From assembly GCA_016926155.1 (NCBI GenBank), contig JAFGPC010000002.1, positions 1-38,199 of the forward strand: a stretch of 38,199 nucleotides of DNA, in the 5' to 3' direction. The position numbers and the translations under genes were made by a program. Positions 1,535 through 10,676 of the stretch are shown one piece after another. This DNA is from Sedimentisphaerales bacterium (GTDB taxonomy: Bacteria > Planctomycetota > Phycisphaerae > Sedimentisphaerales > Anaerohalosphaeraceae). Position 1 is the first letter of the stretch. The number at the start of each line of letters is the position of its first letter. The notes beneath the pieces are model-generated. The model did not search any database. It saw nothing but the letters and a program-made list of their open reading frames with translations, and had not been told where the DNA came from.

Positions 1535-1784
1535 TGTCCTTGAATAGATTAATAAGGTTCCGTCTGAGTAGAGTTCTGGAGAAAATGTGTCGTTTTGCAT
1601 TTCCATAGTGGGTTTCTGCCTGCCGTCTCCCGTTGGATTTATTTCTAAGGGATTATTGACGGGAATGATCACTCGATTCGTAACTTGATCTTATGATGCA
1701 TTTGAATCCATAGAATGCCATGAGTTCCATGAGCAGATTAGCTACAGTAATTAAAGGCATTTTTAATTTTTGATAGGATACAGG

Positions 1785-4457
1785 ATGAATAAAAGCACAA
1801 TCATTTTATTTGTTCTCGCTTTGTTTTGTTCTGAAATGGCTATCGCGGATTTGGCAATTACCGAAATCATGAGCAGCAGCTCTATAAGCGGTATAAACGG
1901 TGACTGGTGGGAATTGACGAACACCGGCTTGGTATCTGTCGATTTAACGGGCTATTCGTGGGACGATGAACACCAACGTATCGGACAAAATATATTCGGT
2001 GCGATTACCATTGGCCCGGGTGAATCCATTATCATTCTTGATGAAGCCCCTGATGGAAGCGTGGAAGAGTGGAGAAATCTCTGGTCAATAGGAGCAGAGG
2101 CAGGTGTTTATGGTAATGATTATCCCTCCTTTTATTTTTCAAGTCTTGGCAACGGTGACGGCGTTTACCTCTACGATCCAGATGACAACTTAGTTACTTC
2201 AGTTACGTACACGAGCCATACCAATGGTTTCTCGAACCAATGGGACACGGATGGGACATTTCTGGGTCTTAGTGTATTCGGCGAAAATGGCGCCTATTAC
2301 TCATTACTCGGCAGTCCTGATGTAGGTTCTCCGGGGATTGCGGTACACGTACAGACCCCATGCACGACGTTAGCCGGCATGGTCTACTGGACCGATAAAG
2401 ACGCGTCGAAAATCCAGCGGGCAAACCCCAACTGCAACTCTGTTGAAGACATACTCACCGCCGCCGACGGCCTAAGTGATCCGCGAGGACTGGCAATCAA
2501 TCTTTCAAACAAAAAAATCTACTGGGCAGACAACGGCACCGATAAAATCCAATGCGCCAACCTAGATGGCTCAAATATTCAGGACCTCGTTATGGGCCTG
2601 TCCTATCCGGCCGACATCGCCCTGGACATCACCGCCGGTAAAATCTACTGGGCAGACCGCGACCTTGGTAAAATCCAACGCATAAACATTGACGGCACCG
2701 GATCAATTGAAGACGTAATCAGCGGCCTGGCTCAGCCATACTACCTGACACTTGACACGGTTAATGATAAGATTTACTGGAGTGATTTTGATAGCCCGGT
2801 CATCCACAGAGCCAATCTTGATGGCACAGCAATCGAAGATTTTATTACCGGCCTTGACCGAGCCCGAGATGTCGCAATAAACCCCAACGACGGAAAAATT
2901 TACTTCTGTGACCGCGACTCCTCAAGCGTCCAGCGTGCAAACCTCGACGGCACAAACATCAAATCCCTCTTTGGATATGCTGATGGACTGGGACGACCGC
3001 ACGGTATCACACTCGACATCGCTGCTGGAAAAATGATCTTTACCGACACAGACGCCTCTACGGTCTATATCGCAAACATGGACGGTACCGGCTCGCTGAG
3101 TCCACTTGCAACAGGATTAAACGGCCCATGGGGCATTGACGCTATTTCAACAAGAAAAATCATACACGTCGACGCAGACGCGCCCGGCCCTGTCCATGAC
3201 GGCTTGAACTGGAACGATGCGTATTTGTATCTCCAGGATGCCCTGGACGCTGCAAATCCTGACGACGAAATCCGCGTCGCACATGGCACCTATACGCCGG
3301 ATACCGATACTGCCAATCCAACCGGCACCAGTGACCGCCATGCCGCGTTCATGCTCAAAAAGGAGGTTGCCGTCATTGGTGGCTTTGCGGGCCATGGCCG
3401 ACCCAACCCGGACGAGCGTAATATCGAAGCACACAAAACCATACTCAGCGGCGACCTGGCAGGAAATGATACGGCAATTACATTAGCAGACTTAGAACTT
3501 GACGCGAACCGTGATGAAAACAGCCTGCACGTAGTCAAGGCCCTTGATATCTATGACAACTCAGTTCTGGACGGCTTCACCATCACGGCCGGACACGCTG
3601 ATTCCGACGATTTTGTCAATTTTTTCGCCGGCAACGTTGGCGGTGGAATTGCGATCAGATCACGTGATCTTCCATGCAGTCCAACGATTATCAACTGCAC
3701 GTTTTTATACAACTATGCCAGCCAAAATGCGCCCGCACTATACAATAACGGACACGGCGTCCAATGCGATCCGACAATAATAAACTGCGTATTCATCGGC
3801 AATGCGGCCGGAAATCTCTATGAAGCAGGCTGTATGGCCAACAATGGAGCCAATCCAATCGTGTCAAACTGCACCTTTAGCTCCAACAGACCGCTGGCAA
3901 TGTCTAATATGGTTTCCGCCCCTGAGACCTGTATACCTGTCATCACAAACTGTATCTTCTTTAACAGCACCGGTGTTCTTCCCTCGGCCCCGCAGGGACA
4001 CATTTTCAACATGGAAGCAACACCGATCATCAATTACAGCTGCCTCCATGAAGAGACCGTCACAGGCGGCACCGGTAATATCTCAGGCAATCCACAATTC
4101 GTAGATGCTGATGGCCCCGATAACATACCAGGCACTGAAGACGATGACCTTCATCTTTCTGAAAACTCACCCTGTGTCAACACAGGAGATAACGTGGCAA
4201 TCGTAACTGTGTCCACTGATCTGGCCGGGTACCCGCGAATCATCAACAACACCGTGGACATGGGGCCGTACGAACGACAGCCGGAGCCATCGGCAGACTT
4301 CAATGGTGACTCGGTCGTGAATTTACGTGATTTTTCCATACTGGCACAGGAATGGCTACAAACTGGTAAGTTGCTTAAGACGGACTTAATAGATGATGAT
4401 ATAATTAATGAGTTAGATCTTTTGGATTTCGTTGAGCTATGGCTCACGTCTCATTAG
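1785..4457 (+). CDS. Large secreted mosaic protein: lamin-tail, six-blade YWTD propeller, beta-helix, dockerin
   Basis: ATG 1785 is chosen over an in-frame TTG at 1770 because AGGATACAGG precedes it and a clean signal peptide follows (MNKSTIILFVLALFCSEMAIA). Domains in order: a lamin-tail-type domain (about 22-145, beginning LAITEIMSSSS with DWWELTNTG); six repeats of about 43 residues of the K-I-Y-W-[AST]-D...N-[LI]-D-G type (about 200-450), the number needed to close a YWTD beta-propeller; a right-handed beta-helix / polymorphic-outer-membrane-type region (about 460-830, starting HVDADAPGPVHDGLNW); and two C-terminal dockerin-like loops (DFNGDSVVNLRDFSILAQEW and a more diverged one ending ELWL). 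The parts are known as adhesion or binding modules; cell-surface display or secretion is inferred. The last ~90 bases are visibly richer in A+T than the propeller, suggesting module shuffling. Confidence 0.9.
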   Translation: MNKSTIILFVLALFCSEMAIADLAITEIMSSSSISGINGDWWELTNTGLVSVDLTGYSWDDEHQRIGQNIFGAITIGPGESIIILDEAPDGSVEEWRNLWSIGAEAGVYGNDYPSFYFSSLGNGDGVYLYDPDDNLVTSVTYTSHTNGFSNQWDTDGTFLGLSVFGENGAYYSLLGSPDVGSPGIAVHVQTPCTTLAGMVYWTDKDASKIQRANPNCNSVEDILTAADGLSDPRGLAINLSNKKIYWADNGTDKIQCANLDGSNIQDLVMGLSYPADIALDITAGKIYWADRDLGKIQRINIDGTGSIEDVISGLAQPYYLTLDTVNDKIYWSDFDSPVIHRANLDGTAIEDFITGLDRARDVAINPNDGKIYFCDRDSSSVQRANLDGTNIKSLFGYADGLGRPHGITLDIAAGKMIFTDTDASTVYIANMDGTGSLSPLATGLNGPWGIDAISTRKIIHVDADAPGPVHDGLNWNDAYLYLQDALDAANPDDEIRVAHGTYTPDTDTANPTGTSDRHAAFMLKKEVAVIGGFAGHGRPNPDERNIEAHKTILSGDLAGNDTAITLADLELDANRDENSLHVVKALDIYDNSVLDGFTITAGHADSDDFVNFFAGNVGGGIAIRSRDLPCSPTIINCTFLYNYASQNAPALYNNGHGVQCDPTIINCVFIGNAAGNLYEAGCMANNGANPIVSNCTFSSNRPLAMSNMVSAPETCIPVITNCIFFNSTGVLPSAPQGHIFNMEATPIINYSCLHEETVTGGTGNISGNPQFVDADGPDNIPGTEDDDLHLSENSPCVNTGDNVAIVTVSTDLAGYPRIINNTVDMGPYERQPEPSADFNGDSVVNLRDFSILAQEWLQTGKLLKTDLIDDDIINELDLLDFVELWLTSH

Positions 4458-4479: not shown

Positions 4480-4665
4480 TCATCCACACCTTTGTTCGGC
4501 TACAGAATAGATTGTGTGGAATTTTACAGTCTCCATAGAAATTCTTCTGTCAAACGACAAAGCAAGAAAATTCTCTTGTGGGGTACCTTCGTGTTTTAGT
4601 TCATCAGGGCTTCTGAAGCCGAAGCGTTCATAATATTTAGGATCTCAAACCGAGACACAGATGTA
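4480..4665 (-). pseudogene. GNAT acetyltransferase remnant (C-terminal part only)
   Basis: Reading the minus strand from about 4644 to the stop at 4480-4482 gives DPKYYERFGFRSPDELKHEG, then a segment with PQENFLALSF and ETVKFH. This matches the C-terminal pattern of YhbS-type GNAT acetyltransferases (G-[DH]-P-x-Y-Y-x-R-F-G-F ... F-M-A-L-x-L ... V-x-[YF]-H). Just upstream, VSV is followed by an in-frame TGA where that family normally has L-G before D-P, as if three bases had been lost. All acetyl-CoA-binding N-terminal sequence is missing, and the fragment abuts the 3' end of the next remnant. Non-functional by inspection; the family call is from motif recognition. Confidence 0.65.
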
Positions 4666-4789
4666 TTAGAGATTTGGGTCAATCAAATACGTATTTTTAT
4701 CAAGATCTATCTGAATTTTTGTGCCGTCCGCATAGGAAGTCTCTTGTCTTCGATATTTGCCATCTAAAAATCTGTGGTTCGTCATTTCG
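4666..4789 (-). pseudogene. C-terminal remnant of a glycosidase-like protein
   Basis: The minus strand encodes TNHRFLDGKYRRQETSYADG, then KIQIDLDKNTYLI and a stop at 4666-4668. The pattern of an H-x-F-L element, a basic/polar turn, then x-E-T-x-Y-x-D-G-T and a short beta strand ending in Y resembles the last domain of several planctomycete glycosyl-hydrolase-like proteins. I cannot fix the exact family. To the right of about 4790 the same frame turns into antisense of the GH62 fragment, so the N-terminal part is lost. A GNAT remnant lies directly downstream. Confidence 0.5.
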
Positions 4790-5392
4790 ACCACAATGGA
4801 TATCAATGATCCGTCCTCATGGACGAAAGCCGCGCCAATCCTGAATGGCGGCAAGGACGATCCCCGTGAAGTAGGCGGCCTGGACTACTGGATTATCTGT
4901 GACGAGCAGCGAGCGTATCTGTTTTTAACAAGCCTCGACGGCAAGATGTGGCGATTATGGACAGACCTGAAGGACTTTCCACAAGGCTTTAATCACTGCG
5001 AACTGGCATTGCAGGCCAGAGTCTTCGAGGCCAGCCATATGTACAAACTTAAAGGGATGGATAAGTATCTCACCGTCATTGAGGAAAACGGTCGACGATA
5101 CTATAAAGCCTACATCGCCGATAGCCTTGACGGCATAGGGACGCCCATCGCCGACACGGCTGAGCATCCCTTCGCCGGATGGAAGAATGTTAAGCCCGCC
5201 CCGGGTGTCGAACCATGGACAGACAATATCAGTCACGGTGAACTTATTCGTGATGGATACGATCAAATGTTGATCGTCGATCCGGAGCATATTCGGTTCA
5301 TCTTCCAAGGCATGTGGGATAAAGATAAAGCCGGTAAAGCGCATGGTCAGTTCCAATGGCGAATCGGCATGTTAACACCGGCTAACAAGTAA
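4787..5392 (+). pseudogene. 5'-truncated GH62 alpha-L-arabinofuranosidase
   Basis: From STTMDINDPSSWTKAAPI onward the protein follows GH62: DYWIICDE, YLF...DGKMWR, FPQGF, FEASHMYKLKG, the Y-L-x-x-I-E-x-x-G-R-R-Y-Y element, NPFAG-like HPFAGW, WTDNISHGELIRDGYDQ, FIFQGM and a final W-R-I-G-M-L-T. The glutamate in FEASHMY (codon 5027-5029) corresponds to the family general acid. The first third of a normal ~300-residue GH62 domain is absent, including the blade carrying the general-base aspartate (usually K-D-P-S-x) and any signal peptide. The open frame does extend to a TTG at 4757, but those codons are antisense to the neighbouring minus-strand remnant. No ribosome binding site is seen at ATG 4796. 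Confidence 0.8.
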
Positions 5393-9176: not shown

Positions 9177-10676
9177 TTACCAGAGTTTAGGTTGTGATGA
9201 AACAGCTTCTTCGGTTTTTGAGTGGGTTGCTCGTTTGACTGATTCGATGGCAATTCCACGGCCTTTCCGCCGCAGTTTCGGACATTCTCCTGTCCAGCAG
9301 TATAGACAGACCTTGTCTCGTGGCAGGCCGATAGCAGACACCATATCTTCTACTGTCTGATAGCGCAAGGTTGTTACGCCGATATCTCTGGCAATCCAGT
9401 CGATCATACGCTTGAATTTTTCACTGGTGTGGTCGATATATTGCGAAACATCCTGAACATCATGTCCTTCCAAACTTCGGATCGCCCTTCGGGCGGCTAA
9501 TTCATGGATGGATCGGGTGGAAAGGTTGAACCGACAGGGAAACATTAAGGGGGGACATGCCGGTCGGACATGGATTTCCTTGGCGCCACAATCCCAGAGC
9601 TTTTTAATCGTGAAATTTTTCAATTGCGTACCCCGTACAATCGAGTCTTCACAGACGACGATACTGTTGTTTTCAATGACTTCTTTGATGGGGATCAACT
9701 TCATCCGTGCAACCAGATCACGGGTATGCTGTGATGGCGGTGTATAACTCCGACCGTATCCGGAAGTGTATTTTACCAAGGGTCTGCGAAACGGCTTGCC
9801 GGATTGCATGGCGTATCCCAGACCATGTGCCAAACCCGAATCAGGAACGCCACAAACCAGATCGACGTGGATATCTTTATCCCGTCGTGCCAAAGATCGA
9901 CCACATCGTTCTCGTACGATTTCGGCGTTGATCCCCTCATAGTTCGATGCAGGAAAGCCGGTATAAATCCAAAGAAAAGAGCAAATCTGATTGACTTTTG
10001 TCTGGCCGGGACTGCGTTGTACAATACCGTCTTCATTCAGAAGGATAGTTTCCCCCGGTTCAACATATTTTACTACTTCGAATCCGGTATTGTGAAATGC
10101 ACATGTTTCACTGGTGATGGCCCATGCATCCTGTCTTTTCCCGATTATCAGCGGATTGTAGCCAAATCGATCACGAGCGGCATAAATTCCGGTTCGATTC
10201 AACAATAATAACGAACATGAACCTTCTATGAGATGAAACATTCGTTCAATACCGTCAACCAGATCATTGCCCTGGTTGATTAATTTGGCGACCAATTCGG
10301 TGCTATTGACTCCCTTGTGACTTACCTCACTGAAGGAGATTCCCGACTTGAGCAGGGATGCCGTCAATTCGTCTCCATTTTCTACAATACCATCCGTGGC
10401 CAGACAAAAAGGTCCGAATTTGGAATTGAGATAGATGGGTTGCTCGTCAAAAGCACTGATGACTCCAATTCCTTTGTTCCCCTGTATTCGACTGGAGTCG
10501 TCATAGAATTTGGATTTAAACTGGCTATGGCTTAGGTCGTGAATCTGCCGGATGAACTCCGTTCCGAGGATGGCCATTCCGCCGTATTGCGTACCGAGGT
10601 GAGAATGATAATCGGTTCCATAAAATAGCGTTTCGACACAATTGTCTTTTGAAACAATGCCAAAAAGACCACTCAT
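9177..10676 (-). CDS. PurF-like amidophosphoribosyltransferase paralogue lacking the catalytic cysteine
   Basis: The 499-residue protein has the PurF layout: an N-terminal Ntn-type glutaminase fold (about 1-240, with FYGTDYHSHLGTQYGG and RDRFGYNPLIIGK) and a C-terminal phosphoribosyltransferase fold (GVPDSG, and the PRPP loop VVCEDSIVRGTQL). In true PurF the residue after Met (or after a propeptide) is the nucleophile Cys; here the start reads MSGLFGIVS, so Ser takes its place and the nearest Cys is residue 13. A paralogue group with this Gly/Ser start and the same GTDYHSHLGT block occurs in other anaerobic bacteria. The C-terminus has a CLYCWTGEC cysteine cluster. AGGAGAGG lies 5 bases before the ATG. 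Glutamine-dependent PRPP amination is doubtful; an ammonia-using or regulatory role is inference. Confidence 0.88.
   Translation of the reverse strand: MSGLFGIVSKDNCVETLFYGTDYHSHLGTQYGGMAILGTEFIRQIHDLSHSQFKSKFYDDSSRIQGNKGIGVISAFDEQPIYLNSKFGPFCLATDGIVENGDELTASLLKSGISFSEVSHKGVNSTELVAKLINQGNDLVDGIERMFHLIEGSCSLLLLNRTGIYAARDRFGYNPLIIGKRQDAWAITSETCAFHNTGFEVVKYVEPGETILLNEDGIVQRSPGQTKVNQICSFLWIYTGFPASNYEGINAEIVRERCGRSLARRDKDIHVDLVCGVPDSGLAHGLGYAMQSGKPFRRPLVKYTSGYGRSYTPPSQHTRDLVARMKLIPIKEVIENNSIVVCEDSIVRGTQLKNFTIKKLWDCGAKEIHVRPACPPLMFPCRFNLSTRSIHELAARRAIRSLEGHDVQDVSQYIDHTSEKFKRMIDWIARDIGVTTLRYQTVEDMVSAIGLPRDKVCLYCWTGECPKLRRKGRGIAIESVKRATHSKTEEAVSSQPKLW

Follow-up and report, generated by a model that had tools for sequence, protein, structure and literature searches.

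Three 5'-truncated gene tails in a Sedimentisphaerales bacterium: a pseudogene cluster probably left by at least two deletions

Three gene tails within about 900 bp

The window analyzed here is a stretch of 38,199 nucleotides at the start of contig JAFGPC010000002.1 from an uncultured Sedimentisphaerales bacterium. Between two ordinary genes in this window, three gene tails, all 5'-truncated, are packed into ~900 bp (4480-5392). Only 3' portions with their natural stop codons are left in all three, whereas full-length homologues measure ~170 aa (GNAT), ~660 aa (glycosidase; 658/659) and ~360 aa (GH62). The features are as follows:

4483-4659, minus strand: GNAT acetyltransferase remnant, the final ~57 codons of a gene for a ~170-aa protein, with an in-frame TGA at 4645-4647 and the stop TGA at 4480-4482.
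4657-4668: GNAT/glycosidase junction, a few bases from the glycosidase stop, placed by codon-by-codon comparison with intact homologues.
4666-4793, minus strand: DUF5696 / GH101-GH129-like glycosidase remnant, comprising the final ~40 codons out of ~658 and the gene's own TAA stop at 4666-4668.
4787-4793: glycosidase/GH62 junction, where TCGACCA is compatible with both parents (2-8 bp in common, most likely 5-8).
4787-5392, plus strand: GH62 alpha-L-arabinofuranosidase pseudogene, 5'-truncated; the C-terminal ~201 codons in an open frame with the stop at 5390-5392, without blade I and the first catalytic Asp.

The plus-strand ORF at 4757-5392 matched Pfam PF03664 (GH62) with E=1.6e-28 and a score of 100 bits against a curated cut-off of 22.1, which places it in the family. 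The match covered solely profile positions 101-270 of 272; with positions 1-100 missing, the complete five-bladed propeller and the Asp/Asp/Glu triad of GH62 enzymes are not present. Chains of GH62 structures in the PDB likewise aligned to the window only from chain residue ~106-238 onward. We found ~20 close GH62 relatives in public genomes, in MAGs labelled Planctomycetota, Verrucomicrobia and others. These homologues are 72-79% identical to the tail and mostly 350-480 aa long, and they carry ~110-150 N-terminal residues that are absent from the window, among them the stretch 'WEYSAPLIAPE...AQKDPTVVF..WHVFMTVKLPG...' seen in the alignment of full-length relatives. The alignment to PDB 4pva, which we take to be Abf62C, begins near chain residue 125. 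In the solved GH62 enzyme Abf62C, the catalytic triad consists of Asp55/Asp171/Glu230 (PMC4408175). Because the aligned part begins near residue 125 of 4pva, the first catalytic Asp would fall in the lost part of the protein, which makes it very unlikely that the fragment has arabinofuranosidase activity.

Within the GH62 tail, substitutions (W>G, T>M, Y>H, D>N) were present at 4/79 positions that are otherwise invariant. Close GH62 relatives showed 0-3 such changes, somewhat fewer than the 4 of the tail, and the most distant relatives no fewer. By a majority-rule count, the lineage-specific changes in the tail comprised 16 nonsynonymous and 20 synonymous substitutions, similar to the 95:101 of living relatives and far removed from the neutral expectation of 3.5:1, and the signal of relaxed constraint within the GH62 tail alone is thus weak. 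Two other GH62 loci came up in these searches. The window's own genome holds another GH62 gene, split across two contig ends (G000:C50:27501-28121, query residues 51-256, and G000:C98:3-284, residues 258-353), and contigs C50 and C98 probably adjoin, since one gene is split over their ends. A GH62 gene of the same subgroup in a planctomycete MAG (JAMCWO010000228.1; L034:1136-2003) lacks ~77 internal residues and has a frame change, and is either an independent GH62 pseudogene or an assembly error.

On the minus strand, the coding tail of the glycosidase runs from 4669 to 4793, and its 40-42 residues EMTNHRFLDGKYRRQETSYADGTKIQIDLDKNTYLIDPNL share 62-65% identity with the C-termini of intact 658/659-aa proteins. 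Such intact homologues occur in the window's own genome (contig 177), in G009, in G058 and in others, and they end at nearly the same position as the tail. They match DUF5696, DUF6259, GH101 and GH129, so the label "glycosidase-like" given in an earlier note on this DNA was correct. The GNAT tail shows 37-55% identity with the final ~50 aa of intact ~170-aa acetyltransferases, and its in-frame TGA stands where intact copies carry Gly.

For all three tails, intact homologues reach well past the truncated end. Signs of disablement were also found, in the form of the TGA in the GNAT tail, the loss of an essential part of GH62 and the alteration of 4/79 invariant residues. Judged from its sequence, the region 4480-5392 is best read as an intergenic group of three pseudogenes, remnants that no longer function, as expected from ordinary bacterial gene decay. 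Profile and homologue comparison thereby bore out the earlier note, which had described three gene tails each without its 5' part. Its statement that the minus-strand remnants are invisible to ordinary gene calling also holds, for both of them.

Junctions and relative age of the tails

Codon comparison showed that the GH62 similarity genuinely starts at the Ser-Thr-Thr codons at 4787. The TCGACCA at 4787-4793 reads as these GH62 codons in one direction and, backwards, as the glycosidase codons Val-Glu. The sequence in common spans between 2 and ~8 bases, with the parents judged from homologues and not from the true parents. A match of at least 5 shared bases would be expected in ~0.5% of random joins, which, with parents known only through homologues, does no more than hint at microhomology-mediated joining here. 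The same comparison exposed an apparent GH62 similarity upstream of 4787 (K-N-L-W-F-V) as glycosidase antisense, and what looked like glycosidase similarity rightwards of 4793 as GH62 antisense. Small frame overlaps at ~4766-4787 are spurious, as GH62 antisense weakly resembles a glycosidase motif. At the other junction, only a few bases separate the glycosidase stop codon from the point where GNAT similarity picks up again, and no clear common sequence could be defined at 4657-4668 from the codon comparison with homologues. The breakpoint previously put at about 4790 was thus well placed; the GNAT junction does lie inside the range of 4640-4670 given for it, with its exact place at that range's right edge. 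No repeats or inverted repeats were present at the junctions, apart from one chance 12-mer, and the junction DNA was absent from the other family genomes and the viral contigs searched.

The base composition of the tails differed markedly. GC/GC3 values of the minus-strand tails were 0.41/0.34 and 0.37/0.38, compared with 0.51/0.59 for the GH62 tail, while neighbouring intergenic DNA has a GC content of 0.33-0.39. Intact paralogues in the window's own genome have values of 0.54/0.61 and 0.49/0.51 over whole genes, and the tails of these paralogues have a GC3 of about 0.62; taken together, the paralogues range over 0.49-0.57 in GC and 0.51-0.62 in GC3. The difference in GC3 that sets the GH62 tail apart from the two minus-strand tails was significant (P=2e-4), albeit on ~100 codons and with AT-rich donors as another possible explanation. 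The fall of GC and GC3 towards the intergenic level suggests a greater age for the two minus-strand remnants than for the GH62 tail. Conversely, the purified substitution pattern of the GH62 tail indicates that its truncation is recent relative to the divergence from its relatives, and the GH62 truncation indeed looks recent. Such differing ages argue against a single event having made both truncations, and they suggest at least two events at different times.

Origin of the cluster

The earlier note had explained the glycosidase and GH62 tails as divergent neighbours, with one deletion having taken both 5' ends together with a shared promoter region. The orientation and the truncation pattern at 4787 fit this idea exactly, and the missing 5' parts are absent elsewhere in the genome. 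Among 397 genomes of the class, 43 carry this GH62 type and 21 a DUF5696 protein. Both intact families occur in 15/397 (the window's own genome included, its scar not counted), where they lie on separate contigs in 14 and ~212 kb apart in the remaining one, the single-contig genome G361; none of these 15 shows the postulated pair. Nor was a DUF5696 gene found beside GH62 in 18+ loci fetched with up to 6 kb of flank, or a GH62 gene adjacent to any intact DUF5696 locus that was inspected. The GH62 gene of G009 has a GNAT gene of another kind (YoaP-like) as its divergent neighbour, and the DUF5696 gene of that genome divergently adjoins an oxidoreductase. Since the two genes were never close in the relatives examined, a set that includes no close strain or species of the window's genus, the pair is not a conserved arrangement. 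Moreover, a deletion that starts in one gene and ends in another of opposite orientation gives an identical scar whatever the distance between them, so the pattern does not show adjacency. With the seemingly different ages of the two tails also against it, a single deletion across a divergent pair appears rather unlikely.

Synteny offered little further help. Orthologues of the GATase/PurF-like gene at 9177-10676 in 7 family genomes were without the window's neighbours, save for weak matches to common oxidoreductases, and consequently no empty site could be read at this locus. The glutamine-amidotransferase (PurF-like) protein encoded there is 71-77% identical to its counterparts and was present in only 7/37 other family genomes. 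Elsewhere in the window, 1770-4457 encodes an 895-aa protein with a lamin-tail domain, LDL-receptor class B-like propeller repeats, a beta-helix and a weak dockerin-like C-terminus.

The fate of the lost 5' parts bears on several readings. The window's own genome is a draft assembly of 5.0 Mb in 222 contigs, 95.9% complete. Searches of it with intact GH62 N-terminal, DUF5696 and GNAT sequences returned no orphan 5' parts of the three genes, and all matches to the intact queries were separate paralogues, either complete or contig-split. That the 5' parts had been lost, as previously supposed, fits this result, and their absence from the rest of the genome favours loss or deletion over inversion or translocation. 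The same observation weighs against a misassembly, with unrelated pieces put together in error at 4657-4668 and/or 4787-4793, because misjoined intact genes should usually leave their matching 5' halves on other contigs. The fragmented state of the assembly, and a junction seen in none of the other genomes or viral contigs, would be compatible with such an error. Nevertheless, a common sequence of at most ~8 bp is below assembler k-mer length, and the nonsense codon and the drift towards AT resemble decay, and misassembly looks unlikely. We likewise hold it to be quite unlikely that the fragments were imported by failed horizontal transfer, or shuffled by inversion or translocation through illegitimate recombination, instead of being left by deletions. 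Prokaryotic pseudogenes do often arise from failed transfers (PMC522871), and this GH62 subgroup is patchy across several phyla. However, what each of the three fragments retains is precisely its 3' end, the scanned flanking genes included no mobile-element gene, the junctions lack repeats and the genome contains no reciprocal 5' parts. Finally, the truncated GH62 could be a living, shortened protein made from a new start and selected as a catalytically dead sugar-binding propeller. Its 201 codons are open, TTG at 4757 or ATG at 4796 could serve as starts, and the substitution pattern is still purified. Against this, the protein would be without blade I and one catalytic residue, no close full-frame homologue begins at that point, the four substitutions affect residues otherwise invariant in close homologues, and a purified pattern is expected anyway under recent truncation. 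This last reading therefore strikes us as extremely improbable.

Altogether, we consider it probable that the pseudogene cluster was made by at least two illegitimate-recombination deletions. A first deletion would have joined the inside of the GNAT gene to the bases immediately downstream of the point where a DUF5696-type glycosidase gene stops. A further deletion would later have joined the last ~40 codons of this glycosidase to the middle of an oppositely oriented GH62 gene, possibly at a short TCGAC(CA) match, and the deleted 5' parts would be gone from the genome. These deletions need not have been short, nor the genes adjacent. The sequence comparisons directly show that the genes are truncated, to which families they belong, how they are oriented, where the junctions lie, that the GNAT tail has a nonsense codon and that the rest of the assembly lacks the 5' parts. 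We infer both the order in time and the role of deletion, rather than another rearrangement, as the maker of the junctions.

Comparison with known systems

In automated annotation, the 211-aa ORF would pass for a GH62 enzyme and add to the apparent arabinoxylan-degrading capacity even though one catalytic residue is gone, and the two minus-strand remnants are easily overlooked. Beyond annotation the importance of the locus is small, and it may serve as a case study of how glycosidase genes are lost in these bacteria.

With GH62 alpha-L-arabinofuranosidases (e.g. S. thermophilum Abf62C, PDB 5b6s, 3wmy) the GH62 tail shares clear homology across the C-terminal two thirds, and the later Asp and the Glu of the catalytic triad lie within the aligned part; it differs from them in lacking the N-terminal ~100 profile positions, the first catalytic Asp included. 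The glycosidase remnant resembles the DUF5696 / GH101-GH129-like glycosidases of related genomes in its C-terminal ~40 residues and stop position, but has lost >90% of the gene. Similarly, the C-terminal ~55 residues of the GNAT remnant correspond to those of N-acetyltransferases of ~170 aa (GDPxYYxRFGF type), whereas the N-terminal two thirds are missing and a nonsense codon lies within. In most prokaryotes, 1-5% of gene-like sequences are pseudogenes (Liu et al. 2004, PMC522871), and the three remnants are like the intergenic pseudogenes described in that study in being truncated, disabled copies of known families that gene callers easily miss. The only difference is that this cluster is a dense case, with three remnants in ~0.9 kb.
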